This document shows, one piece after another, positions 11,957-46,266 of a DNA stretch of 64,000 bases (within the stretch, counting starts at the first letter, position 1; each line of letters starts with the position of its first letter). Source of the stretch: Amycolatopsis australiensis (GTDB lineage: Bacteria > Actinomycetota > Actinomycetes > Mycobacteriales > Pseudonocardiaceae); contig NZ_FPJG01000006.1 in NCBI RefSeq assembly GCF_900119165.1, positions 4,712,001 through 4,776,000 of the forward strand, given 5' to 3'. Position numbers and translations under genes: made by a program. The notes below the pieces were generated by a model that did no database searches, had not been told where the DNA came from, and saw only the letters and a list, made by a program, of their open reading frames with translations.

Positions 11957-12205
11957 GCTGGGCGCAAGCTGCGCCCTGGGCGGCGGGGAGTGTCGGCCGG
12001 GTGCCTGAGGGCTGTGGGGGTCTTGGGGCGGCGCAGGGGCTTCGCTGGGGCGGTGGGGAGTGTCGGACCGGCGCCTGAGGGCTGTGGCGGTCTTGGAGCG
12101 GCGCAGGGGCTTCGCCTGGGGCGTTGGGGATTGTCGGCCGGGCGCCTGAGGGCTGTGGATGGTCTTGGGGCGGCGCAAGGGCATCGCCCGGGGCTGCCGG
12201 AAGCG
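11957..12205. repeat. Tandem repeat, 70-71-bp unit, 3.5 copies
   Basis: The 365-bp gap between convergent genes (11945 and 12311) holds a well-conserved direct repeat. Copies begin with TGTCGG at 11991, 12061 and 12132 (periods 70 and 71 bp), with a partial copy before and a decaying one after. Each unit runs GCCTGAGGGCTGTGG, GTCTTGGGGCGGCGCA, GGGGCTTCG and TGGGGAGTGTCGG. Copies differ by a few substitutions. There is no gene with the right frame across it, and no hairpin-plus-T-run terminator is evident. The flanks share a CCCTACGGCTG motif at about 11934 and 12217. Confidence 0.8.
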
Positions 12206-34402: not shown

Positions 34403-34448
34403 TTGGAAACGTTTCCAACGCAAGGTTGCGTAGCTGGAAACGTTTCCA
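34403..34448. promoter_or_regulatory. Two LacI-family operators, 31 bp centre to centre
   Basis: TTGGAAACGTTTCCAA (34403-34418) is a perfect 16-bp palindrome and TGGAAACGTTTCCA (34435-34448) a perfect 14-bp one. Both carry the central CG of LacI/GalR-family sites. Their centres are 31 bp apart, three helical turns, so two repressor dimers would lie on the same DNA face. The CGCAAGGTTGCG inverted repeat lies between them. They immediately precede the LacI-type gene, implying autoregulation and control of the operon behind it. Confidence 0.85.
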
Positions 34449-34470: not shown

Positions 34471-35475
34471 ATGACGTCAACACGCGCCACGCTGCTCCAG
34501 GTCGCGGAGCGCGCCGGGGTGTCCCTGGCCTCGACTTCGCGCGCGCTGCACGGCACCGGCGCCAGCCCGGCGATGGTCGAGCGGGTCCGCGCCGCGGCCG
34601 CCGAGCTCGGCTACAGCGCGGACGCCATCGGGCGGTCGCTGCGGCTGAAGAAGACTTTCCAGGTCGCCTTCGCCGTCGCCGACATCGGCAACCCCGTCTA
34701 CGTCGAGATGATGCGCGCCATCCACGAAGTCCTGGCGCCGCACGGCTACCGGGTCGTCGTGATGACCACCGGCGACACCGCGACGTCGACCACCGAGCTG
34801 GTCCGCAGCCTCAACAGCGGGTTCGTCGACGGCATGATCGTCAGCCCGCTGCGCACCGACGACCGGCTGATCCGCGAGATCCAGCAGGCGCCGGTGCCGG
34901 TCGTGGTGATCGGGCGGGCTCTCGACGACCGCGGCATCAGCTCCGTGTCCACCGACTCCGCGGGCGGCATCGGCGCGGCCGTCCGGCACCTGCACGCGAT
35001 CGGCCGCCGCCGGATCGGCTTCCTCAACGGCCCGCTCGACACGACGCCCGGTGCCTCGCGCCAGCGCGGTTTCGACGCCGCCACCGAGACCATCGCCTTC
35101 GACCGCGCCGACCAGGAGATCGCGGACGACTTCACGGTGAGCGCCGGTCTCGGCGCGGCCCGCCGGCTGCTCGCCCGCGGCGCGCTCGACGCGCTCGTCG
35201 CGGCGAACGACCTGCTCGCCATCGGCGCCATCCGCGCCGTGCGGGAGCGGGGCCTGTCGGTGCCGGAGGACGTCGCCGTGACCGGCATGGACGACACCGA
35301 GCTCGGCCGGGTCTTCCAGCCCAGCCTGACCAGCGTGTCCCTCGGCTCGACCGAACGCGGCCGCGCTGCCGCCCGGATCATGCTCGGCCTCGCCGACGAC
35401 CCGGACCACGAGGCACAGCAGATCACCGTCGGCCCGGAGCTGGTGGTGCGCGAGTCGACCGGAGGTGCGGCGTGA
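34471..35475 (+). CDS. LacI family transcriptional regulator
   Basis: A 334-residue regulator. Residues 4-50 are the LacI headpiece (TLLQVAERAGVSLASTSRAL, MVERVRAAAAELGYSADAI, GRSLRLKKT). The rest is the periplasmic-binding-protein-like effector domain (VAFAVADIGNPVYVEMMRAI, DGMIVSPLRTDDRLI, RRRIGFLNGPLDTTPG, ALVAANDLLAIGAIRAV, AVTGMDDTELGRVFQPSLTS). The ATG at 34471 follows GAGGAAG. The GTG of the first permease overlaps its stop. The effector is probably the imported compound or a sugar derived from it. Its likely operators lie just upstream. Confidence 0.93.
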   Translation: MTSTRATLLQVAERAGVSLASTSRALHGTGASPAMVERVRAAAAELGYSADAIGRSLRLKKTFQVAFAVADIGNPVYVEMMRAIHEVLAPHGYRVVVMTTGDTATSTTELVRSLNSGFVDGMIVSPLRTDDRLIREIQQAPVPVVVIGRALDDRGISSVSTDSAGGIGAAVRHLHAIGRRRIGFLNGPLDTTPGASRQRGFDAATETIAFDRADQEIADDFTVSAGLGAARRLLARGALDALVAANDLLAIGAIRAVRERGLSVPEDVAVTGMDDTELGRVFQPSLTSVSLGSTERGRAAARIMLGLADDPDHEAQQITVGPELVVRESTGGAA

Positions 35476-36416
35476 CCGCGACCCTGACGCGCCCGGCACC
35501 GCCGTCCGCCCGGCGCCGCCCGGCGCTCGCCCGCACCCGGCGGCGCGAGGCGATCGCGCTGGTGCTGCCGTCGCTGATCCCGATCCTCGTGCTCAGCGTC
35601 GCGCCGCTGGTCGTCGGGATCTTCCTGGCCTTCACCGACGCGCGCCTGGTCCGCCACCCCGACTACGGCTTCGCCGGCGTGGACAATTTCGCCGAGCTGG
35701 CCGGGAACTCGCTGTTCTGGGACTCGCTGCGGATCGGCATGATCTGGACCGTCGGCGTCACGCTGCTGCAGCTGGCCGCCGCGATGGGACTGGCCCTGCT
35801 GCTGAACTCGGGCCTGCGGCTGCAGGGCCTGACGCGGGTCCTCGCGCTGGTCCCGTGGGCGATGCCGCCGGTCGTCGTCGCGATCATGTGGCAGATGATC
35901 TACTCGGCCAACGGCGGCCCGCTCAACGCCTTCCTCGGCAGCGTCGGGCTGCCCGGCGACGTCAACTGGCTCGGCGACTTCTCGACCGCGCTGCCCGCGG
36001 TGATCGTCGTCGGGGTCTGGGTCGGCATGCCGCAGACGACCGTGACGCTGCTGGCCGGCCTGCAGCAGATCCCGGCCGAGCTGCACGAAGCCGCCGCGGT
36101 CGACGGCGCGGGCGCCTGGCGGCGGTTCACCGCGGTGACGTGGCCGAGCCTGCGCCCGATCGTCACGTCGATCACGTCGCTGAACTTCATCTGGAACTTC
36201 AACTCGTTCTCGCTGGTCTACGTGCTCACCGCGGGCGGGCCGGGCGGCAAGACGATGGTGCCGGTGCTGTTCATCTACCTGGAGGCGTTCAAGAACCGCG
36301 AGATCGGCTACGCCGCCGCGATGGGTCTCGTGCTCGTCGTCGTGGTGGTGCTCATCCTCGCCGTCTACCTGCGGTCGCAGTTCCGCGACGACCGCGCCAC
36401 CGGAAAGGGGCGCTGA
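35472..36416 (+). CDS. Sugar ABC transporter permease (MalF-type)
   Basis: A 314-residue inner-membrane permease with about six helices, starting at GTG 35472 in the lacI stop. The cytoplasmic EAA loop that contacts the ATPase is ELHEAAAVDGAGAWRRFTAV. Other family marks are PSLIPILVLSVAPLVVGIFL, VPWAMPPVVVAIMWQMI and VLTAGGPGGKTMVPVLFIYL. It pairs with the next gene and the lipoprotein at 37276 to form a carbohydrate importer. No ATPase is in the operon, so a shared MsiK-like ATPase elsewhere must energise it, as is common in actinomycetes. Confidence 0.92.
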   Translation: MTATLTRPAPPSARRRPALARTRRREAIALVLPSLIPILVLSVAPLVVGIFLAFTDARLVRHPDYGFAGVDNFAELAGNSLFWDSLRIGMIWTVGVTLLQLAAAMGLALLLNSGLRLQGLTRVLALVPWAMPPVVVAIMWQMIYSANGGPLNAFLGSVGLPGDVNWLGDFSTALPAVIVVGVWVGMPQTTVTLLAGLQQIPAELHEAAAVDGAGAWRRFTAVTWPSLRPIVTSITSLNFIWNFNSFSLVYVLTAGGPGGKTMVPVLFIYLEAFKNREIGYAAAMGLVLVVVVVLILAVYLRSQFRDDRATGKGR

Positions 36417-37243
36417 TGCGGGTCCTGGTGCGCCCGGCCCAGTACGCGGCCCTCGCGCTGTACATCCTGTTCCTCGGCTTTCCCTTGCTGTGGCTCGTTT
36501 CCGCCTCGGTGAAGTCGTCCGGCGAGCTGAACTCGCTGACGGTCAGCCTCCTGCCGGGCGAGTGGCACTGGGACAACTACGCCGAGGCGCTCGAGCGGCA
36601 GGGGCTCGTCCGGTCCGCCGCCAACAGCCTGGTCGTCGCGCTGGCGTCCACCGCGCTCTCGGTCGTCATCGCCGTGCCCGCGGCCTACGTGCTCGCACGG
36701 CTGAAAGGCAAGGTACGGGCCGCCGGCGTCGGCTGGATCCTCGTCAGCCAGGTGTTCCCGGTGGTGCTGATCATCCTGCCGCTGTTCCTCGTCCTGCGGA
36801 CGCTGGGCCTGGCCGACAACCTCGCCGGCCTGACCCTCGTGCACACGACCTACATGCTGCCGTTCGCTCTCTGGATGCTGCAGGGGTACGTCGCCGCGAT
36901 CCCGGTGGAGCTGGAGGAAGCGGGCGCGATGGACGGCGCGAGCCGGCTGACCGTGCTGCGCACGATCGTCTTCCCGCTGCTCGCCCCGGGTGTGGTCGCG
37001 ACGGCGATGTTCAGCTTCGTCTCGTCGTGGAACGAGTTCTTCTTCGCGCTGGTGCTGCTGCAGTCGCCGGAGAACTACACCCTGCCGATCACGCTCAACA
37101 TGTTCGTCGGCGGCGAGGGCAAGGTCGCCCTCGGTCCGCTCGCCGCGGGCGCCGTGCTCGCCGCCATCCCCAGCATCGTCTTCTTCGGCATCCTGCGCCG
37201 GAAGCTCACCAGCGGCCTGATGGCCGGGGCGGTGAAGGGATGA
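36416..37243 (+). CDS. Sugar ABC transporter permease (MalG-type)
   Basis: A 275-residue permease with six helices. Its EAA loop is ELEEAGAMDGASRLTVLRTI. SASVKSSGELNSL near the N-terminus and SSWNEFFFALVLLQSPENYT near the C-terminus are typical MalG-type segments. The ATG shares a base with the TGA of the first permease (TGATG). It is the second transmembrane subunit of the importer encoded by this operon. Confidence 0.92.
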   Translation: MRVLVRPAQYAALALYILFLGFPLLWLVSASVKSSGELNSLTVSLLPGEWHWDNYAEALERQGLVRSAANSLVVALASTALSVVIAVPAAYVLARLKGKVRAAGVGWILVSQVFPVVLIILPLFLVLRTLGLADNLAGLTLVHTTYMLPFALWMLQGYVAAIPVELEEAGAMDGASRLTVLRTIVFPLLAPGVVATAMFSFVSSWNEFFFALVLLQSPENYTLPITLNMFVGGEGKVALGPLAAGAVLAAIPSIVFFGILRRKLTSGLMAGAVKG

Positions 37244-37275
37244 ACTCCACCGAGAATCACTCGAAAGGTCGGTCG

Positions 37276-38556
37276 ATGAAGACACGACGCATGATTGCCG
37301 CCACCGCGCTGACGGTCGCCGGCCTGCTGCTCACCGCGTGCGGGGGCGGCGGCAGCGGGGACGGCGGAAGCGGGCCGGTCACCCTCACCTTCCAGTCGCT
37401 GTCCGATCAGCCCGCGGCGGTCGCCGCGACGCAGAAGATCGTCGGCGACTGGAACAAGGCCCACCCGCAGGTGCAGGTCAAGATCGTCCAGGCGGGCTGG
37501 GACGGCGTCTACGACAAGCTGATCACCCAGTTCAACGCGGGCAGCGCGCCGGACATCGTGCACTACGAGGCGGCCGGCGTCGTCCCGTTCGCCACCGACG
37601 GCTACCTCGCGGACCTGACGCAGTACCTGCCGGAGCCGAAGCGCGCGGACATCCCGAAGGGCGTCCTGGACTCGGTCACCGTCGACGGCAAGCTGATCGC
37701 CGTGCCGACCGAGCTGCAGTCCTACGTGGTCTTCGCGAACAAGACCCTGCTGCAGCAGGCGGGCGTCCCGATCCCGGCGACGCCCACGATGAGCTGGGAC
37801 CAGCTGCGCGAGATCGCCAAGGCGACCACCAAGGACGGCAAGTTCGGCCTCGGCTGGGGCCTGTCCAGCCCGACGGCGGCGTTCGTCGCGCTGGCCCCCG
37901 GGTTCGGCGGCAAGTACTTCGAGGGCACCGGCAAGGACGCGAAGCTGACCGTCGGCCAGGGCGAGCAGGCGCTGCCGCAGCTGGTGGACGCGATGGCGCA
38001 CCAGGACCACTCGATCCTGCCGGTCACGCTGACGCAGTCGGGGACCAAGGCGCTCGCGCCGTTCTACGCCGGCCAGGTGGCCATGACGGTCCAGGGTTCC
38101 TACCAGGCGGCCAACATCGCGAAGGACGCGCCGAAGGGCTTCGACTGGGTCGTGCTCCCGCCGCTGGCCGGCTCGGCCGGGCCCGCGCAGGCCGCCAACC
38201 CGCAGACGCTGTCGGTGAACAAGGACTCGGCGCACGTCAAGGAGGCCGCGGAGTTCGTCGACTTCTTCACGAGCACGGAGAACCTGGCCGCGATCAACGA
38301 GGCGGACGCGCTGATCCCGCCGACGACGTCCGCGCGGCAGGCGCTCACCACCAAGCTCGGCGGCAAGAACGGCTGGAACGAGATCCTCGCGTCGGGCCAG
38401 TACCTGACGTCGGCGCCCTACCTGTTCGCCGGCAAGTACGCGCAGTGGAAGGACACCGTCGCGACTCCGGCGTACCAGCAGTTCCTCGCCCAGAAGATCG
38501 ACGCCGCCGGGCTCGCGAAGCAGCTCGAAGACGGCTGGAAGAACGTCAGCAAGTGA
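37276..38556 (+). CDS. Sugar ABC transporter substrate-binding lipoprotein
   Basis: A 426-residue extracellular binding protein of the carbohydrate cluster. The lipobox LLLTAC precedes a Gly/Ser linker. Family segments are VTLTFQSLSDQPAAVAATQK, YDKLITQFNAGSAPDIVHYE, YLADLTQYLPEP, VPTELQSYVVFANKTLLQQA and AFYAGQ-like GQVAMTVQGSYQAANI. The ATG at 37276 follows GAAAGG; an ATG at 37240 overlapping the permease would add 12 hydrophilic residues ahead of the signal. The ligand is unknown, but the operon content points to a glycosylated small molecule. Confidence 0.92.
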   Translation: MKTRRMIAATALTVAGLLLTACGGGGSGDGGSGPVTLTFQSLSDQPAAVAATQKIVGDWNKAHPQVQVKIVQAGWDGVYDKLITQFNAGSAPDIVHYEAAGVVPFATDGYLADLTQYLPEPKRADIPKGVLDSVTVDGKLIAVPTELQSYVVFANKTLLQQAGVPIPATPTMSWDQLREIAKATTKDGKFGLGWGLSSPTAAFVALAPGFGGKYFEGTGKDAKLTVGQGEQALPQLVDAMAHQDHSILPVTLTQSGTKALAPFYAGQVAMTVQGSYQAANIAKDAPKGFDWVVLPPLAGSAGPAQAANPQTLSVNKDSAHVKEAAEFVDFFTSTENLAAINEADALIPPTTSARQALTTKLGGKNGWNEILASGQYLTSAPYLFAGKYAQWKDTVATPAYQQFLAQKIDAAGLAKQLEDGWKNVSK

Positions 38557-38569
38557 CAGGAGCGGATTG

Positions 38570-39724
38570 GTGACCTGGCTGGAAGACCGGGCCGTCGCGG
38601 TGATCACCGGTGCGGCCGTCGGGGACGCACTCGGCGGCGCCACCGAAGGGTGGACACCCGAGCAGATCGAACAGCGGCACGGTGGCCGGGTGACCGGTGT
38701 CGTCGGGCCGTGGTACCCGGACTGGCGGACCGCCCGCCCGATCGCGCCGTACCACAAGGGCGACGGGCACGTCACCGACGACACGCTCATGACGCGGGCG
38801 CTCGTCGAGGTGTACGCGAAGCGCCGCGCGCACCTCGACGCGTACGCGATGGCCGAGGACCTGGTGCCGCTGATGATCGGCGAACCGCGCTGGGTGCCGG
38901 AGCTGGAGTCGACCGCGCTGCTGCTGCAGCGGGTCTTCCTGGCGGAGAAGTGGATCGTCGCGAGACTCCACTACGGACACGTCGACCCGCGCGAAGCGGG
39001 CGTGGGCAACGTGGTCAACTGCGGCGCGGCGATGTACGTCGCCCCGGTGGGCGTCGTGAACGCGGGTGACCCCCGCGGCGCGTACGCCGAGGCGATCGAC
39101 CTGACCGGCGCGCACCAGTCCAGCTATGGCCGGGAGGCGGCGGGGGTGCTGGCCGCGATGGTGGCGGCCGCCGTCGCACCCGGCGCGTCGCTGGACGACG
39201 TCGTCACGGCCGCTCTGGACGTGGCCCACGACGGGACCGCGGCGGCGCTGCGCGCGGTCGTCGAGACCTTCGGCGGCCGGACCACCGCCCCGGCGACCGA
39301 CGACGAAGAACGTGCGCTCGCCGCGCTGGTCCGGGAGACGGTGGCGCCGTTCGACTCGGTGGGGCCGCACTACCGGGAGATGTCCTTGGATGCCCGGCGG
39401 CCTTCCCGGACGAAGTCCATCGAAGAGCTGCCCGCGGCGCTGGCGTTCGTGCTCGCGCACCGGGGCGACTTCCGCGGCGCGGTGCTGGCCGCGGTGAACT
39501 ACGGCCGGGACGCCGACTCGATCGCGGTGATGGCGGGCGCGCTGTGCGCCGGCCTGGGCGGCACCGCCGTCGTGCCGAAGGACTGGGTCGACACGATCGG
39601 CGAGGCCAGCCGCATGGACCTGCGCGAGACGGGGGAGCTGCTGGCCTCGGCGGCCGCCGACATCCTCCGGGCCGACCGGGACCGCGCCCGCGCCCGCGCC
39701 GCCTTCCTCGAGGAGACGGCGTGA
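38570..39724 (+). CDS. ADP-ribosylglycohydrolase family protein
   Basis: A 384-residue, all-helical protein of the DraG/ARH fold. The two metal-binding clusters are intact: TDDT in KGDGHVTDDTLMTRAL and DAD in NYGRDADSIAVMAGALCAGL. The opening GAAVGDALGGATEGW is typical. Known relatives remove ADP-ribose from arginine or other groups, but those in sugar-transport operons probably cleave ribosides or related N- or O-glycosides. It starts at GTG 38570 behind AGGAG. Its stop overlaps the GTG of a second, distinct family member. Confidence 0.9.
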   Translation: MTWLEDRAVAVITGAAVGDALGGATEGWTPEQIEQRHGGRVTGVVGPWYPDWRTARPIAPYHKGDGHVTDDTLMTRALVEVYAKRRAHLDAYAMAEDLVPLMIGEPRWVPELESTALLLQRVFLAEKWIVARLHYGHVDPREAGVGNVVNCGAAMYVAPVGVVNAGDPRGAYAEAIDLTGAHQSSYGREAAGVLAAMVAAAVAPGASLDDVVTAALDVAHDGTAAALRAVVETFGGRTTAPATDDEERALAALVRETVAPFDSVGPHYREMSLDARRPSRTKSIEELPAALAFVLAHRGDFRGAVLAAVNYGRDADSIAVMAGALCAGLGGTAVVPKDWVDTIGEASRMDLRETGELLASAAADILRADRDRARARAAFLEETA

Positions 39725-41387
39725 GGCTGACCTGGGCCCAGCCGGAGGACCTGCTGCCGCACGAGCTGGTGCAGTCGGCCGCGGAGGGCAAGGACATCAC
39801 GGCGGTCCGCCAGCGGTGGATCGCCGCGGGCGGCAACCCGGTCCCGCCGGTGAGCGGCGCAGGCCCGGCCGCGCCCGAGCTGCGGCCGCTGGCGCGGGCG
39901 CTGCTGGATGAACTGGAGGCGCTTGCCGCGCCCGCCGAGCCGGGTTGGGCCGGGACCGCAGCGCCTGCCGAGCCGGGGCGGCCCGGGACCGTGGCGCCCG
40001 CCGATCCTGAGTGGGCCAAGGCCCCGGCGCGCGCCGAGCCGCGGCCGCCCGGGACCGCTGCGTCCGCGAAGCCGGGGTCGGCAGAGACCGCGGCGGCCGC
40101 CGGGCCGAGGCGGGCCGGGACCGTGGCGGCCGCCGATCCTGAGTGGGCCAAGTCCGCGGTGCCCCCGAGCCGGGTTCGGCCTGGACCGCGGCGTCGGCCG
40201 ATCCTGAGTGGGCCAAGATCCCGGCGCGCGCCGAGCCGCGGCCGCCCGGGACCGCTGCGTCCGCGAAGCCGGGGTCGGCGGAGACCGTGGCGGTCGCCCA
40301 GCCGGGGTGGGCGGAGATCGCCGCGTTGCTGCCGCCCGCGCCGTCGCTGCCGCGTGGGTCGCGGGGGCGCGAGCTGGCCGCCTGGACCGGGCGGGCCGCC
40401 GGGTGCCTGCTCGGCAAGCCCGTGGAAAAGATCCCGCGGGAGGGCATCGAGGAGATCCTCCGCGCGACCGGCCGCTGGCCGCTGGCCGGGTGGTTCACCG
40501 CGGCCGGGCTGCCCGCCGACGTGGCCGCGCGGTGGCCGTGGAACCGGCGCTCGGCGCCGACGTCGCTGGCCGAGAACATCGACGGGATGCCCGAGGACGA
40601 CGACCTCAACTACCCGATACTGGCCCTTTCCCTGCTGGAGCGGCACGGCCGTGGGTTCACCACCGAGGACGTCGCCCAGCTGTGGCTGGACAATCTGCCG
40701 GCCGGGCGGGTGTTCACGGCCGAGCGCGCGGCGTACCGGAACCTCCTGGACGCGCGCCCGGACACCGCGACCCACCACAACCCGTTCCGCGAGTGGATCG
40801 GCGCGCTGATCCGCGCGGACGTGTTCGGCTGGGTGTCCCCGGGCGACGTGCGTTCGGCGGCCCGGCTGGCCTGGACGGACGCCCGCCTCAGCCACACGCG
40901 CAACGGGGTGTACGGCGCGATGTGGGCGGCGGGTCTCGCGTCGGCGGCGATGGTGTGCGACACGGTGGAGGAGGTGCTGGACGCGGCGTCGGCAGTGGTG
41001 CCGGCCGGGTCCGCGCTGGCCGCGGCGATCGGCTTCGGCCGTGACGCGGCTCGTTCGGGTGACGTCCGCGACGGCCTCGACCGCCTGCACGAGGCCTACG
41101 GCGGCCTGCACTGGGTGCACGTGCTGAACAACGCGGCGGTGATCGCGTACGCGCTCGCGAAGGGCGGCGGCGAGTTCGGGCCGAGCGTGTCGATCGCGGT
41201 GACGGCGGGCTGGGACACGGATTCGGCGGCCGCGACGGTCGGGGGAGTGGTGGGCGCGGTGAGCGGCGTGGACGAGTACTGGAGCAAGCCGCTGGACGAC
41301 CGGATAGCGACCTCGCTCCCGGGCGGCGAGCGCCGGATCACGGACCTGGCGGCCCGCACGGCGGCGCTGGCGGAGGGAGCGGCATGA
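39721..41387 (+). CDS. Second ADP-ribosylglycohydrolase family protein, frameshifted in a duplicated linker
   Basis: The gene starts at GTG 39721 (VRLTWAQPEDLLPHELVQSA) inside the previous stop. About 65 conserved residues precede an Ala/Pro/Glu-rich linker with the repeated motif ADPEWAK. The hydrolase domain (RELAAWTGRAAGCLLGKPVE, MPEDDDLNYPIL, SHTRNGVYGAMWAAGL, TAGWDTDSAAATVGGVVGAV) lies in a different frame that ends at 41387. The frames meet at a run of five C at 40162-40166, where one base appears lost; a -1 slip there restores one protein of about 556 residues. The cause may be mutation, sequencing error or slippage. If the frameshift is real, only a truncated N-terminal product is made. 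Confidence 0.75.
40000..40290. repeat. 197-bp direct duplication inside the hydrolase linker
   Basis: A block starting GATCCTGAGTGGGCCAAG at 40003 recurs at 40200, followed by about 70 nearly identical bases (CGGCGCGCGCCGAGCCGCGG and onward to GGTCGGC). The same 18-mer also occurs at 40135. The 197-bp offset is one short of a multiple of three. The two copies can encode the same peptide only if a base has been lost between them, which pinpoints the frameshift. Confidence 0.85.
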
Positions 41388-41500
41388 CCGCGCGGACGCT
41401 GGTCGGGGATGCCGGTGCGGCGGTCTGCCGGGCGGCGCAGGGCCGGGAGAGCGGCGCCGTGACCTGCGGCGCTGAGGTTCGAGCGGAGGGAGCGGCATGA
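41384..41500 (+). CDS. Possible 38-residue linker ORF between hydrolase and kinase
   Basis: ATG 41384 overlaps the stop of the hydrolase gene and its TGA (41498-41500) overlaps the ATG of the PfkB gene, giving ATGA junctions at both ends. The product, MTARTLVGDAGAAVCRAAQG and onward to AEGAA, resembles nothing. A 21-bp direct repeat (41370-41390 and 41483-41503) covers both junctions. The frame may therefore be a by-product of a local duplication and serve only to hand ribosomes to the next gene. Confidence 0.35.
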   Translation: MTARTLVGDAGAAVCRAAQGRESGAVTCGAEVRAEGAA

Positions 41501-42378
41501 CCGGGCGGGTCGTGGTCGTCGGGTCGGCGAATGTCGACCTCGCCGTCGATGTTCCGCGGCCGCCGCGAGGTGGGGAGACCGTTCTCGGGGGGCGGTTGCG
41601 GCGCAGTCCCGGAGGCAAGGGGGCCAACCAGGCCGTCGCCGCCGCCTGGGCCGGGGGTGCCGACACCACCTTCGTCGGCGCTCTCGGCGAAGACGAAGGT
41701 GCCGATCTCGTCCTCGTCTCGCTCGGGGGCGCCGGGGTCCGGACCGACCTCGTCGAACGGGCCGACGCGCCCACCGGGACCGCCTTCGTCACCGTCGCCC
41801 CGGACGGGGAGAACGCCATCGTCGTCGCCCCCGGCGCGAACGAGCACGTCCGCATCGGTGCCGCCCAGGCCGCACGGATCGCCGACGCCGACGTCGTCCT
41901 GGCCCAGCTCGAAATCCCCGTCGACGTCGTGGCGGCCGCCGCCGCGGCGCGCCGGCCCGGGGCGCTCATGATCCTCAACGCCGCGCCGGCCCGGGACCTG
42001 CCGGACTCGCTGTGGGAGGTGCTCGACGTGCTCGTGGTCAACGAGTACGAAGCCGCCGACCTCGCCGGCGAACCCGAGAAGCTGCTCAAGCGGGTGCCCG
42101 CCGTCGTCGTCACCCTCGGCCGCGACGGCTGCGTGGTGCTCCGCCGGGACAGCGAACCCGTGCGCGTGCCCGGGAGCAGCGTCGACGTCGTGGACACCAC
42201 CGGCGCCGGCGACACCTTCTGCGGCGTCCTCGCCGCGGCACTCGCCCAGGGGCGGACGTTGCCCGAGGCGGCCCGCCACGCGGGCGTGGCCGCCGCGCTC
42301 GCCGTCACGCGGCCGGGCGCCCAGGCCGCCGTCCCCGCTGCCGACGAGGTCGCCGCGTCCGGAGGAAAGGCACCATGA
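41497..42378 (+). CDS. PfkB family carbohydrate kinase (ribokinase-like)
   Basis: A 293-residue sugar kinase. The substrate-binding signature is LRRSPGGKGANQAVAAAWAG and the ATP/catalytic signature is DTTGAGDTFCGVLAAALAQG with its catalytic Asp. SANVDLAVDVPRPPRGGET at the N-terminus and VNEYEAADLAG match ribokinases most closely. In this operon it probably phosphorylates the pentose released by the ADP-ribosylglycohydrolase-like enzymes. Its ATG overlaps the stop of the small linker frame. Its stop overlaps the ATG of the TIM-barrel fusion (42375-42378). Confidence 0.9.
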   Translation: MTGRVVVVGSANVDLAVDVPRPPRGGETVLGGRLRRSPGGKGANQAVAAAWAGGADTTFVGALGEDEGADLVLVSLGGAGVRTDLVERADAPTGTAFVTVAPDGENAIVVAPGANEHVRIGAAQAARIADADVVLAQLEIPVDVVAAAAAARRPGALMILNAAPARDLPDSLWEVLDVLVVNEYEAADLAGEPEKLLKRVPAVVVTLGRDGCVVLRRDSEPVRVPGSSVDVVDTTGAGDTFCGVLAAALAQGRTLPEAARHAGVAAALAVTRPGAQAAVPAADEVAASGGKAP

Positions 42379-44249
42379 CCTACCAGTTCGACCCGCTCGT
42401 CCCGCGGCCCATCGACCGGCCTGCCGAGGTGCGCGGCCCACTGTCCACATTGGACGACGCGAAGATCTTCGCCGCTCCCGCCGACCCGGCCGACCGGCCC
42501 GCGTGGCGCGAGACCCTCGAAGCCTGGCGCGAGGACGCCCGGCGCCGTCACGGCTACACGGGGGCCGCCTACGCCCGTCCCGGCGCGGCGTGGGCGGCGA
42601 CCTGCTTCACCGTCGCCCAGGTCTGGCTGTGGGACGAGCTGCTCTACTCCTTCGACGAGCACCGGTTCACGCCCGACCGCTTCCTCGCCGACGCCCGAGA
42701 CCGCTTCGGTGGTCTCGACGCCGTCGTGCTGTGGCACGCCTACCCGGTGATCGGGCTCGACGACCGCAACCAGTGGGACTTCTACCGCGACGTCCCCGGG
42801 CTCGCGGAACTCGTCGAAGCCCTGCACGACCACGGCTTGCACGTCTTCGTCGACTACAACCCCTGGGACGTCGGTACCCGCCGCGGCGCAGCCGACCTCA
42901 CCGAGCTGGCCGCGCTCGTCGCCGACCTGAAGGCGGACGGCGTCTTCCTCGACACGCTCAAGAAAGCCGAGCCGGACTTCGTGGAACGCCTCGAAGCGGC
43001 CCGGCCCGGGATCGTCCTCGAAGGCGAGTCCAAGCTGCCGGTCGAGCGGATCGAGGACCACGCGGCGTCGTGGGCCCAGTTCTTCGCCGACTCGCCCGTG
43101 CCGGGCGTCCTGCGCGCGCACTTCTACGAGCGGCGGCACATGCAGCACCACGTCCGCCGCTGGCACCGCGACCACAGCGAAGAGCTGCAGTCGGCGTGGC
43201 TCAACGGCGTCGGCGTCATGGTGTGGGAGGTCGTCTTCGGCGTGTGGGTCGGCTGGTCGCGCCGCGACGCCGCGACCGTCCGCCGCATGGTCACGCTCCA
43301 GCGCGCCGCCGCGGACCTGCTCCTGCACGGCGAGTGGACGCCGCTGGCCGAGCTCCCGCCGGAGGCGGAAGCGGCGGGCGTCTACGCGTCGAGCTGGCGG
43401 CGCGACGGCGTGACCCTGTGGACCCTCGTCAACCGCAGCGACACCGACTACCACGGCCCGCTGCCCGGAGCGGACCTTCTCGGCGGCGTCCCGGCCCGCG
43501 GCATCGGCGCCTCCGCCGAAGGCTGGCGGCCGGATCTGCCCGAGCTGCCGCACGATCCCGACGCGCGGTTCCCGCACCGGCTCGCGCGCCGCGTCAGTCC
43601 ACAAAGGACCACCGGAACGCCTTCGCAGGACACGGTCGTCGTCCCGGCCGGACCGTACGTGCTGACCGTCCGGTACCGCGCCCGCGAGACCGGCATGTAC
43701 CAGGGAGCGCCCTATGTGGACGAATGGAAGCCGCTGCCGCCGCGGTTGCACGACGCCCGCACGCTGCAGCGCGAAGGCGAGCTGGCCACGGCCGTCGCGG
43801 TCGCGGCCACCGAGGTGACGAACGCGGAGTTCGCCGAGTTCGTCGCCGCCACCGGCTACCGGCCCGCGAACCCGCACCGCTTCCTCGCGCACCCGGGTGC
43901 CCCGGATGAGCCGGTGACCTACGTCGACCTCGACGACGCGCGGGCGTACTGCGGGTGGCGCGGTGGCCGGCTGCCCACCGAGGACGAGTGGCAGCTCGCC
44001 GGGGAGACCGGCGCGCTGCGGCGCGGCACGCCCGCGGTGTGGAACTGGACCGAAAGCGAGCACACCGACGGCCGGACCCGGTTCGTGATGCTCAAGGGCG
44101 GCAGCGACTACCGCGCGGAGGGCTCCGAGTGGTACGTCGAAGGCGGCCGGAAGGAACCCGACTACACCGTGAAGCTCCTCCTGCCGGGCCTCGGCCTCGC
44201 GCGCAGCGCGACGGTCGGCTTCCGCTGCGCCTGGGAGGTGACGGCGTGA
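42375..44249 (+). CDS. TIM-barrel glycosidase-like protein fused to SUMF1-like domain
   Basis: A 624-residue cytosolic fusion. The first about 440 residues look like a TIM-barrel hydrolase: DAVVLWHAYPVIGLDD, ALHDHGLHVFVDYNPWDVG, DLKADGVFLDTLKKAEPDF, GIVLEGESKLPVERIEDH, GVGVMVWEVVFGVWVGWSRR, then a beta-sandwich. From about 475 a SUMF1/FGE-like domain follows: VAATEVTNAEFAEFVAATGY, YVDLDDARAYCGWRGGRLPT, EDEWQLAGETG and GFRCAWEV. The catalytic cysteine site of true FGE (GGSW-x-C) reads GGSDYRAEG, so it should not be a formylglycine generator and may only bind ligand. A ribosome site GAGGAAAGG precedes the ATG. Confidence 0.75.
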   Translation: MTYQFDPLVPRPIDRPAEVRGPLSTLDDAKIFAAPADPADRPAWRETLEAWREDARRRHGYTGAAYARPGAAWAATCFTVAQVWLWDELLYSFDEHRFTPDRFLADARDRFGGLDAVVLWHAYPVIGLDDRNQWDFYRDVPGLAELVEALHDHGLHVFVDYNPWDVGTRRGAADLTELAALVADLKADGVFLDTLKKAEPDFVERLEAARPGIVLEGESKLPVERIEDHAASWAQFFADSPVPGVLRAHFYERRHMQHHVRRWHRDHSEELQSAWLNGVGVMVWEVVFGVWVGWSRRDAATVRRMVTLQRAAADLLLHGEWTPLAELPPEAEAAGVYASSWRRDGVTLWTLVNRSDTDYHGPLPGADLLGGVPARGIGASAEGWRPDLPELPHDPDARFPHRLARRVSPQRTTGTPSQDTVVVPAGPYVLTVRYRARETGMYQGAPYVDEWKPLPPRLHDARTLQREGELATAVAVAATEVTNAEFAEFVAATGYRPANPHRFLAHPGAPDEPVTYVDLDDARAYCGWRGGRLPTEDEWQLAGETGALRRGTPAVWNWTESEHTDGRTRFVMLKGGSDYRAEGSEWYVEGGRKEPDYTVKLLLPGLGLARSATVGFRCAWEVTA

Positions 44250-45454
44250 GCGTCTCCCGCGATCCTTCCGCCGGCGCCCTCGCCGGCCTGCGTGTCGTCG
44301 ACGCGTCCACGCTCTTCGCCGGCCCGATGGCCGCGATGCACCTGGGCGACATGGGCGCCGACGTCGTCAAGGTCGAGCACCCGCGCAAACCCGATCCCTC
44401 GCGCACCCACGGCGCCGCGAAGGACGGCGTCAACCTGTGGTGGAAGACCCTCGGCCGGAACAAGCGCACGATCACCGCCGACCTCGGCAGCGAAGGCGGC
44501 CGCGAGGTCTTCCTCGCGCTCGCCGCGACGGCGGACGTCGTCATCGAGAACTTCCGCCCCGGCACCCTCGAACGCTGGCGGCTCGGCTACGACGAGCTGG
44601 CGAGCTGGAACCCGAAGCTGGTGCTCGCCCGCGTCACCGGGTTCGGGCAGCTCGGCCCGTACCGGACCCGGCCCGGCTTCGGCACGCTCGCCGAGGCGAT
44701 GAGCGGGTTCGCCGCGAGCACGGGTGAACCGGACGGGCCGCCGACGCTGCCGCCGTTCGGGCTGGCCGACGGCGTCGCGTCGCTGGCCACGGCCTACGCG
44801 ATCATGGTCGCGCTCACCGCGCGCGAGCGGACCGGCCGCGGGCAGGTCGTCGACACCGCGATCATCGAGCCGATGCTGGCCATGCTCGGCCCGCAGATCA
44901 CCCGCTGGGACCAGCTGCGCACCGTCCAGCCGCGCACCGGCAACCGGTCGGCCAACAACGCGCCGCGCAACACCTACCGCACCAGCGACGGCCAGTGGGT
45001 CGCGGTGTCCACGTCGGCCCAGTCGGTGGCCGAACGCGTGATCCGGCTGGTCGGGCGGCCCGACCTGGTGGACGAGCCGTGGTTCGCCAGTGGCGCCGAG
45101 CGGGCGCGGCACGCCGACGAACTCGACGAAGCCGTCGGCAAGTGGATCGGGCAGCGCACGCGCGAGGAGGTCGTCGCCGCGTTCGAGGCGGCGCAGGCGG
45201 CGGTCGCGCCGATCTACGACGCGGCCGACATCGTCGCGGACCCGCAGTTCCGGGCGCTCGGCACGATCCACGAGATCGACGACGCCGACTTCGGGCCGAT
45301 GCTCATGCAGGGCCCGCTGTTCCGGCTGTCGGACCACGACGGCGTCATCGGCTTCACCGGCCGCCCGCACGGCGCGGACACCGACGCGGTGCTCGACGAG
45401 CTGGGCTTTTCGCCCGAAAGAGTGGCCGAACTGCGCCGGCGGGGTGCGGTGTGA
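44246..45454 (+). CDS. CaiB/BaiF-family CoA transferase
   Basis: A 402-residue class III CoA transferase. Marks are LRVVDASTLFAGPMAAMHLG, DMGADVVKVEHPRKPDPSR, RNKRTITADLGSEGGREVF, VVIENFRPGTLERW, GQLGPYRTRPGFGTLAEAMS and the likely catalytic Asp in PFGLADGVASL. It moves CoA from an acyl-CoA donor to a carboxylic acid. It starts at GTG 44246 in the stop of the TIM-barrel fusion and is followed by a CitE-type lyase. The pair suggests activation then C-C cleavage of a small hydroxy-acid produced by the operon. Confidence 0.9.
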   Translation: MSVSRDPSAGALAGLRVVDASTLFAGPMAAMHLGDMGADVVKVEHPRKPDPSRTHGAAKDGVNLWWKTLGRNKRTITADLGSEGGREVFLALAATADVVIENFRPGTLERWRLGYDELASWNPKLVLARVTGFGQLGPYRTRPGFGTLAEAMSGFAASTGEPDGPPTLPPFGLADGVASLATAYAIMVALTARERTGRGQVVDTAIIEPMLAMLGPQITRWDQLRTVQPRTGNRSANNAPRNTYRTSDGQWVAVSTSAQSVAERVIRLVGRPDLVDEPWFASGAERARHADELDEAVGKWIGQRTREEVVAAFEAAQAAVAPIYDAADIVADPQFRALGTIHEIDDADFGPMLMQGPLFRLSDHDGVIGFTGRPHGADTDAVLDELGFSPERVAELRRRGAV

Positions 45455-46266
45455 CCCCGCCGCTGACGTTCCTCTACACCCCGGCCGACCGCCCGGACCG
45501 GGTGCGGAAGGCGTTCGCGTCGGCGGCCGACGTCGTGCTCGTCGACCTCGAGGACGCCGTCGCCCCGGCACGCAAGGCCGAAGCCCGCGAGAACGTCCGG
45601 CGGCTGCTCGCCGCGGTGTCCCGGCCGGTGCAGGTGCGGGTCAACCACCCGAGCACCCCGTGGCACGCCGCCGACCTCACGGCGGTCGCGGACCTGCCAC
45701 CCGCGGTCGGGGTGCGGCTGCCGAAGGTCGAGGCGCCGGAGGAGATCGCGGCCGTCGAGCGGGCGCTGCCGGGCCGCGCGCTGCACCCGCTGATCGAGTC
45801 GGCGCTCGGGGTGGAACGGGCGCTGGCGATCGCCACGGCGTCGCCGATGATCGCGTCGATCGGGCTCGGCGAGGCCGACCTGCGCTCGGACCTGGGTGTC
45901 GCCGACGACGCCGGGCTGACGTGGGCGCGCAGCCGCGTGATCGTCGCGGCGCGGGCGGCCCGGCTCGCGCCGCCCGCGATGTCGGCCTACGCGAACGTCC
46001 GCGACCTCGAGGGGCTCGCGGCGTCGTGCCGGGCCGGCCGCGCGCTGGGCTTCCGCGGCCGCACGGCGATCCACCCGAGCCAGCTGGAAACCATCAGGAC
46101 GGCGTTCCTGCCGACACCGCAGGAGGTGTCCCGGGCGCGCGAGGTGATCGCGCGCGTCGCGGACGCGACCGCGGCGGGGGTGGGCGCGATCGCCTTGCCG
46201 GACGGCACATTTCTCGACGTCGCCATGGTCGAGCAGGCGCGGACGGTGCTCGCGCTCGCCGACTAG
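45451..46266 (+). CDS. HpcH/HpaI aldolase / CoA-ester lyase (CitE-like)
   Basis: A 271-residue TIM-barrel lyase. TFLYTPADRPDRVRKAFAS, DVVLVDLEDAVAPARKAEAR, VRVNHPSTPWHAADL, LPKVEAPEEI, LIESALGVERALAI, IGLGEADLRSDLG and GRTAIHPSQLETI are the family motifs. The Arg, Glu and Asp residues needed for Mg and CoA-ester binding are present. Relatives cleave malyl-, citramalyl- or beta-methylmalyl-CoA. It starts in the CoA-transferase stop, so the two likely act in sequence. It is the last gene of the LacI operon; only 59 bp separate it from the next, unrelated gene. Confidence 0.9.
   Translation: MTPPLTFLYTPADRPDRVRKAFASAADVVLVDLEDAVAPARKAEARENVRRLLAAVSRPVQVRVNHPSTPWHAADLTAVADLPPAVGVRLPKVEAPEEIAAVERALPGRALHPLIESALGVERALAIATASPMIASIGLGEADLRSDLGVADDAGLTWARSRVIVAARAARLAPPAMSAYANVRDLEGLAASCRAGRALGFRGRTAIHPSQLETIRTAFLPTPQEVSRAREVIARVADATAAGVGAIALPDGTFLDVAMVEQARTVLALAD

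Follow-up and report, generated by a model that had tools for sequence, protein, structure and literature searches.

What are two ADP-ribosylglycohydrolase (ARH)-fold enzymes doing between a sugar importer and a pair of coenzyme A (CoA) enzymes? This question is raised by positions 34471-46266 of a 64,000-nucleotide stretch of the Amycolatopsis australiensis genome (contig NZ_FPJG01000006.1; the whole stretch is called the window here, and positions refer to it). Profile searches and inspection of open reading frames (ORFs) reveal ten genes at this locus, all on the plus strand and mostly overlapping. The genome is 9.31 Mb in size, and its nearest named relatives by operon comparison belong to Amycolatopsis. 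Our analysis indicates that the ten genes, including the CoA branch, very likely constitute one functional unit. We tentatively propose that this unit is a LacI-repressed operon for the catabolism of an imported pentose-hydroxydicarboxylate conjugate, the nature of the compound and of its linkage being part of the proposal.

The operon starts with a LacI-family repressor (34471-35475; PF00356, PF13377), followed by the two CUT1-type ATP-binding cassette (ABC) permeases PermF (35472-36416; PF00528; best NCBIfam matches UgpA, GlcT and MalF) and PermG (36416-37243; PF00528; best NCBIfam matches GlcU and MalG) and a sugar-type solute-binding protein (SBP) of the SBP_bac_1 family (37276-38556; PF01547; alternative start ATG 37240). 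PermG has its ATG at 36416, and its searches were run from 36413. Next come ARH1 (38567-39724; PF03747; likely start GTG 38570) and ARH2, whose catalytic part (40143-41387; PF03747) has a divergent ARH fold. A ribokinase-like kinase of the PfkB family (41497-42378; PF00294), a protein with a SUMF1-like domain (SUMF protein, 42375-44249; PF03781), the class III CoA-transferase CaiB (44246-45454; PF02515) and the CitE/RipC-like acyl-CoA lyase CitE (45451-46266; PF03328) complete the set. The families and the plus-strand orientation claimed in an earlier note on this DNA (LacI, importer, two PF03747 proteins, PfkB, SUMF1-like, CaiB and CitE) are borne out by Pfam and NCBIfam.

That note also described ten consecutive, overlapping genes, which is correct for order and strand and for most junctions. 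Five of the nine junctions (LacI/PermF, ARH1/ARH2, PfkB/SUMF protein, SUMF protein/CaiB and CaiB/CitE) show a 4-nucleotide (nt) ATGA or GTGA overlap, and PermF and PermG overlap by 1 nt (TGATG). PermG and SBP overlap by 4 nt if SBP starts at ATG 37240 and are separated by 32 nt if it starts at 37276. The description does not hold for the SBP/ARH1 junction (a gap of about 10 nt), the ARH2/PfkB junction (109 nt) and ARH2 itself, the frame of which is split.

Conservation of the locus argues strongly for a joint function. Relatives were found through the SUMF protein, a route that under-counts operons lacking it, and the best 80 of 219 confirmed loci were taken. A minimum flank of 9 kb upstream and 4.5 kb downstream was required, which 66 of the 80 loci have and the other 14 lack. 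Neighbour clustering with a simple ORF caller was cluttered by antisense frames of the GC-rich DNA, and gene presence was instead scored mainly by tblastn, with identity thresholds of 33-55% that we set depending on the gene. All ten genes are present in 55 of the 66 relatives, and PfkB is the sole absentee in nine. One locus (L100) has neither CaiB nor CitE, and another (L071) is a rump without the CaiB-CitE pair, LacI and ARH1. The gene order is the same in 65 relatives, L105 being the exception. Neighbourhood conservation had been proposed in the earlier note as a check, with loci devoid of the CoA enzymes as the opposing outcome; both enzymes are kept in 64 of the 66 loci, which leaves the proposal standing. 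A chance cluster of unrelated genes is rejected, since co-occurrence and order are kept across the 66 relatives.

The operon occurs in Amycolatopsis, Saccharopolyspora, Actinocrispum, Kibdelosporangium, Prauserella, Promicromonospora, Cellulosimicrobium, Oerskovia, Georgenia, Nocardiopsis, Cellulomonas, Microbacterium, Kribbella, Glycomyces and other genera. Of 249 genomes of the family, 29 contain ARH2 (E <=1e-40), as do 16 of 396 genomes of the phylum (E <=1e-10); both counts include the window's own genome, and the distribution of the system is therefore patchy. Together, these data show that the ten genes form one conserved, self-contained unit.

The control region points in the same direction. 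A motif search of the genome and the relatives located two perfect copies of the palindrome TGGAAACGTTTCCA just 5' of lacI (34404-34417 and 34435-34448, without strand), with starts 31 bp apart, in agreement with the two LacI operators that had been noted ahead of the genes. No further copy, exact or with one mismatch, occurs elsewhere in the genome, and the repressor therefore appears to be dedicated to the ten-gene operon. From the operator position we infer that LacI control is local and autoregulatory. A regulon with distant members was also considered, and is rejected as the genome holds no further operator. The arrangement is conserved among the 71 relatives' lacI genes with 250 bp of upstream sequence (nine of the 80 collected loci are not included): at least one operator-like site (up to three mismatches) precedes lacI in 68 of them, compared with 7 of 1420 shuffled regions. 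Two sites are present in 60, and their spacing is 31-35 bp in 46 of these 60.

Both CoA enzymes retain the residues expected of active proteins. CaiB matches PF02515 with 393.2 bits, and its D175, present in all 93 homologues, aligns with the aspartate of VAMTDLATG in SUGCT and is presumably catalytic. CitE matches PF03328 with 108.7 bits. Its E116 and R63 are invariant in 90 of 90 homologues and D143 is found in 89; we take the Glu/Asp residues to be Mg ligands and the Arg to contact the substrate. In the family sample, a CaiB of the operon family lies within about 4 kb of ARH2 in 26 of the 29 genomes with ARH2. The remaining three (G129, G214 and G209, the last being the genome of L100, as its identical coordinates show) carry a sister-type CaiB-CitE pair accompanied by a divergent GntR-type regulator, and in G129 this pair adjoins the operon, convergent with the SUMF-domain gene. 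Sister-type CaiB (at least 70% identity) is present in only about 12 of the 249 family genomes, so that its occurrence in three of three would be unlikely by chance (9e-5, a post hoc estimate that ignores kinship). The genome of the rump locus L071 has no sister CaiB at E 1e-100, and that locus has also lost LacI and ARH1. The idea that the CoA genes are mere passengers is rejected, because the sister pair replaces the linked pair. Moreover, in a CaiB tree of 45 rows (25 operon CaiBs, namely that of the window and 24 picked relatives; two rows identical, L227 left out), the operon CaiBs of both architectures, the second of which is treated below, group together with a support of 79/86, apart from other CaiBs.

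The surroundings of the sister pairs offer a clue to the acid. Among 21 sister loci (L181 and 20 picked from 70 genomes with hits, G056 and G101 from the group of about 12 lying outside this set), with genes assigned by Pfam on representatives and by similarity for the rest, CitE adjoins CaiB in 18, and 11 have a GntR-type regulator. Seven continue with a DctM-family permease, and ten contain a cyclase-family gene together with MmgE/PrpD. Since DctM and MmgE/PrpD typically belong to the metabolism of di- and tricarboxylates, a small di- or tricarboxylate bearing a hydroxyl group is the most likely acid, presumably taken up free in the sister-pair genomes and as part of a conjugate in the operon genomes. 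On balance, a hydroxydicarboxylate is the probable acid; malate, citramalate, 3-hydroxy-3-methylglutarate and 2-alkylmalate are candidates. In L220, L221, L223-L229 and L231, CaiB, usually with CitE, lies beside cyclase and MmgE/PrpD genes, in some cases with an MFS transporter. These clusters represent a separate carboxylate pathway.

ARH1 and the catalytic part of ARH2 score 159.5 and 145.5 bits, respectively, against PF03747 (cut-off 26.2). ARH1 contains TDDT and DADS motifs, and E27, T70, D71, D72, D315, D317 and S318 are invariant in 122 of 122 homologues. ARH2 reads EDDD at the position of the TDDT of ARH1, followed by a DTDS motif; its E95, D153, D154, D358 and D360 are invariant in 139 of 139 homologues, and D152 is present in 138. 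The invariant acidic residues of both proteins are, we assume from DraG and ARH3, the ligands of a dimetal site; in an alignment with solved ARHs, only the C-terminal motif is clearly aligned. Both enzymes are thus well conserved at the positions expected to hold metal, and we lean towards the view that they hydrolyse small molecules. The window strain has other ARH genes on contig C6 (L166 and L167), one of them beside a PfkB kinase 33% identical to that of the operon, and the others in two neighbouring frames of 972 and 747 amino acids with ARH matches.

The ARHs of this operon have counterparts in a second gene architecture. Twenty further stretches were read, comprising 13 Streptomyces-type and intermediate loci (L144-L151 and L159-L163) and seven others (L152-L158). 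In one of the latter, L157, the neighbours of a distant ARH2 homologue are a PfkB kinase and two proteins that match no Pfam family. A single further genus of the class, taken by its gene order to be Streptomyces, accounts for ten of the phylum ARH2 hits. The eight loci L144-L151 contain ARH1, ARH2, CaiB and CitE, with PfkB in six of them, and CaiB and CitE are present in all 13 Streptomyces-type and intermediate loci by tblastn. In addition, at least one further ARH frame was called 5' of the ARH1-ARH2 set in seven of the eight Streptomyces-type loci. Pfam confirms a further ARH, termed ARHa, in L145 and another, ARHb, in L147, which carries both. L159, from another genus, encodes within an importer-type operon a 676-amino-acid fusion with two PF03747 stretches, its N-terminal half being 67% identical to ARHa and its C-terminal half 59% identical to ARHb; the ORF caller finds a frame of similar size at the same place of the same cluster in L160 and L161. 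Up to four ARH domains can therefore accompany one CoA pair. ARHb (L147:7599-8846 and the C-terminal half of the L159 fusion) reads VADS or LADS where the others read DxDS/T at the second metal motif, which suggests a non-catalytic or altered ARH.

The Streptomyces-type loci are flanked by glutamate synthase and VIT genes on one side and by LGT, DsbA-like and PLP (trp-type) genes on the other. In S. coelicolor, SCO2026 is a glutamate synthase (PMC3087709), SCO2035 a disulfide oxidoreductase (PMC6593405) and SCO2038 trpX (PMC5036795). Owing to these matching neighbours, the Streptomyces-type loci very probably correspond to the SCO2028-SCO2033 region, an equation made by gene order. In the literature, SCO2028-2030 are uncharacterised DraG homologues filed as putative hydrolases (PMC5087735), as are SCO2028-2031 (PMC9411070). 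The reading implied there, in which the ARHs regulate the pathway by de-ADP-ribosylation of proteins, nucleic acids or a metabolite, accords with the family name and the conserved metal motifs. We consider it very unlikely for the operon: the ten genes include no ADP-ribosyltransferase family by Pfam, so that the partner of a DraT/DraG-like system is absent, and CoA enzymes accompany the ARHs in 64 of the 66 relatives and in all 13 Streptomyces-type and intermediate loci. Furthermore, SCO2028 and SCO2030 were expressed and found inactive on U-alpha-ADP-ribose, a single substrate (PMC13036486).

In the importer, the binding protein and two permeases of a CUT1 system are encoded within the operon, and the ATPase gene is not among the ten genes. 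Three OB_MalK-type proteins are encoded elsewhere in the genome, one of which could serve as the importer ATPase. The best solved chains for SBP are sugar-type binding proteins (E 7e-25 and weaker), and this comparison gave only general sugar-binding matches and no clue to the ligand. A related but unlinked importer (L177-L180; SBP 38-40% and PermF 59-62% identical) is present in four of nine genomes with a Streptomyces-type locus, and in L179 an APH-family gene lies beside it. The remaining five have no more than distant binding proteins, and intracellular formation of the substrate is therefore another possibility.

The kinase is 42% identical to E. coli RbsK. Its D14, K41, N44, E139 and D239 are invariant in 106 of 106 homologues and N12 is present in 100; they match D16, K43, N46, E143, D255 and N14 of RbsK, residues that we take to contact ribose or to act in catalysis. 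A ribose-like sugar is accordingly the one that we favour, with moderate confidence. The same kinase would suit the salvage of a nucleoside or of an ADP-ribose/NAD fragment, with the ARHs freeing ribose, the ribokinase phosphorylating it, and CaiB/CitE degrading an acid from the base or from a second ligand. A precedent is the cassette SERP2216-2218 of staphylococcal elements, in which an ARH and a ribokinase accompany a permease of the cytosine/purine/uracil/thiamine/allantoin type (PMC3637587). The importer of the window, by contrast, is CUT1-type. Pfam places none of the ten genes in a base-degrading, nucleotidase or Nudix family, and the clusters in which relatives of the CoA pair occur are of the carboxylate type. 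We regard salvage as distinctly unlikely.

The SUMF protein combines an N-terminal part of about 450 residues without assigned family and a C-terminal SUMF1-like domain (residues 467-565); its searches were run from 42369, two codons 5' of its ATG. The N-terminal part has no Pfam match even at E 10 in the protein of the window and that of one relative, and the TIM barrel that the earlier note had placed in this fusion therefore finds no profile support. The SUMF1-like match is partial, covering profile positions 29-138 of 255. A formylglycine-generating enzyme has the full domain and an active-site cysteine pair. No cysteine occupies an invariant or nearly invariant column in an alignment of 30 SUMF proteins, making such an enzyme unlikely, and this activity is rejected for the domain.

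Some operons are accompanied by an esterase. Of 69 loci that contain CitE and offer 3.5 kb or more of downstream sequence, 17 carry, 65-1070 bp 3' of CitE and on its strand, an esterase gene (PF00756) with beta-propeller repeats; one more locus has it on the opposite strand. The esterase (L061:14174-16693, for example) has a signal-like N-terminus and is probably secreted. These loci come from Cellulosimicrobium, Oerskovia, Georgenia and a few other genera. Such a neighbour may point to a substrate source bound in a polymer or an ester, and a sugar-acid ester in place of a glycoside would be compatible with it. The esterase and the SUMF protein would then split the molecule, the ARHs would cut a separate glycosidic bond in the sugar part, and CaiB/CitE would burn the ester acid. 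We judge this unlikely, since the esterase is not one of the ten conserved genes, accompanies a minority of loci and is found in none of the fetched Amycolatopsis loci. In favour of the ester, CUT1 importers commonly carry sugars of oligosaccharide size.

Taken together, the earlier proposal that importer, ARHs, kinase and CoA enzymes form one catabolic unit is supported by the conservation of the locus, the operators, the replacement of the CoA pair by its sister and the conserved active sites. For the preferred pentose-hydroxydicarboxylate conjugate, the following route can be envisaged. SBP and the two permeases, with an ATPase encoded elsewhere, would import a small glycoconjugate, which in some relatives may be freed outside the cell by the probably secreted esterase. 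ARH1 and ARH2, predicted from their family and metal residues to be metal-dependent small-molecule glycohydrolases, would cleave an N- or O-glycosidic bond. The released ribose-like pentose would be phosphorylated by the kinase where present, as its conserved ribokinase residues suggest. CaiB would charge the liberated acid, for which a malate- or citramalate-like hydroxydicarboxylate is the likeliest candidate, with CoA, and CitE, with its catalytic residues conserved, would cleave the resulting 3-hydroxyacyl-CoA into an acyl-CoA and a 2-oxo acid or aldehyde. Extended to both architectures, the proposal would make the families of ARH1 and ARH2, together with the Streptomyces members found among SCO2028-SCO2031, a metabolic branch of the ARH superfamily, comprising metal-dependent small-molecule glycosidases that free a pentose from a hydroxydicarboxylate conjugate, with the acid entering central metabolism by CoA transfer and retro-Claisen cleavage through an undescribed pathway. 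This broader suggestion is made with more reserve.

Several observations weigh against the conjugate reading. The substrate is shown by none of the computational comparisons, and the esterase beside 17 operons fits a sugar-acid ester equally well. The kinase scores 260.6 against the ribokinase equivalog TIGR02152 in NCBIfam, below its cut-off of 299.65. At a threshold of 42% identity it is missing from 10 of the 66 relatives and from two of the eight Streptomyces-type loci, and hence is dispensable. CitE has RipC (NF038242) as its best NCBIfam match, with 157.7 bits against a cut-off of 375, and also lies far below the CitE cut-off. No DctM gene accompanies the sister pair of G209 in the 16 kb covered at that locus (L213). 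LacI, importer and SUMF-domain genes are absent from the stretches read of L144-L151. The seven loci L152-L158 encode distant ARH2 homologues (34-50% identity) without ARH1, CaiB or CitE, and ARH2-like proteins thus also work in other settings. Finally, the 66 loci are biased towards complete operons, having been found through the SUMF protein.

The frame of ARH2 is a further difficulty. The N-terminal part (39721-40142) starts at a GTG that overlaps the ARH1 stop, whereas the catalytic part lies in another frame (ORF 40143-41387), and the ARH2 anchors of the window are 653 nt apart, which is not a multiple of 3. In 115 of the 140 frames collected from relatives, both anchors are in one frame, 90-137 residues apart; in the remainder, an anchor was missed by the search pattern or the frame was cut. 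The N-terminal part holds part of a 33-bp tandem repeat array of about 12 units (39928-40312, plus strand). One unit, near 40159-40190, is 32 bp long and coincides with the frame change, and codon-position GC places this change within the same interval. The array is missing from the five close relatives tested, L040 having only 1.9 copies of an 18-bp repeat. The spacer between ARH2 and PfkB (41384-41496) is likewise a private 113-bp stretch with a duplicated junction GGAGGGAGCGGCATGACCG; in relatives, the two genes overlap by 4 nt in 83 of 103 cases, and the longest gap is 95 nt. The ARH2 catalytic domain is up to 90% identical to that of relatives and retains all metal-ligand residues. Judged from the sequence, the window's own copy of ARH2 is damaged or misassembled.

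Outside the ten genes, the upstream flank contains a GSDH/PKD protein and an NmrA-like gene. The genes downstream encode a protein that matches no Pfam family and is probably secreted, a regulator of the ArsR type and an MFS protein. The genes on both sides look unrelated to the operon. No sigma-70-type promoter was found for the operon, and terminator-like sites around it are not above the shuffled background. A 70-bp tandem repeat of about three copies (88% matches) is located at 11978-12194 of the window.

The statement in the earlier note that the system matches no known pathway needs qualification. An ARH beside a ribokinase and a permease has a precedent in the staphylococcal cassette, while an ARH joined with CaiB or CitE was not found described in the open-licence PubMed Central (PMC) literature. 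Our analysis gives a testable metabolic role to ARH homologues, including those of a model organism, that have been filed as uncharacterised ADP-ribosyl hydrolases, and suggests that soil actinobacteria use a carbon source so far overlooked. If the proposal is true, the functions of the ARH fold would be widened, and caution would be due in reading every PF03747 gene as an agent of de-ADP-ribosylation.

Four known systems can be compared with the operon of the window. The SERP2216-2218 cassette shares with it an ARH and a ribokinase together with a transporter, but as described (PMC3637587) it has a nucleobase-type permease, one ARH and neither CoA enzymes nor LacI. The SCO2028-SCO2033 region, equated by gene order, shares ARH1, ARH2, CaiB and CitE, and differs in its extra ARHs; the stretches read lack LacI, an importer and a SUMF-domain protein. 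The degradation of itaconate and citramalate proceeds through a CoA-transferase, a hydratase and a Ccl/RipC lyase. The CoA-transferase and a CitE/RipC-type lyase in series are common to this pathway and the operon, whereas the ten genes include no hydratase, the lyase is far below the RipC cut-off, and sugar genes are part of the operon. LacI-controlled CUT1 sugar operons resemble it in the repressor, the paired operators, the SBP with two permeases and the lack of an ATPase gene, but its downstream enzymes are ARHs and CoA enzymes, and Pfam detects no profile of a glycoside hydrolase family among the ten genes. The protein families are all known; what is unusual is the combination of this hydrolase set with a CoA branch in a LacI-controlled catabolic operon.

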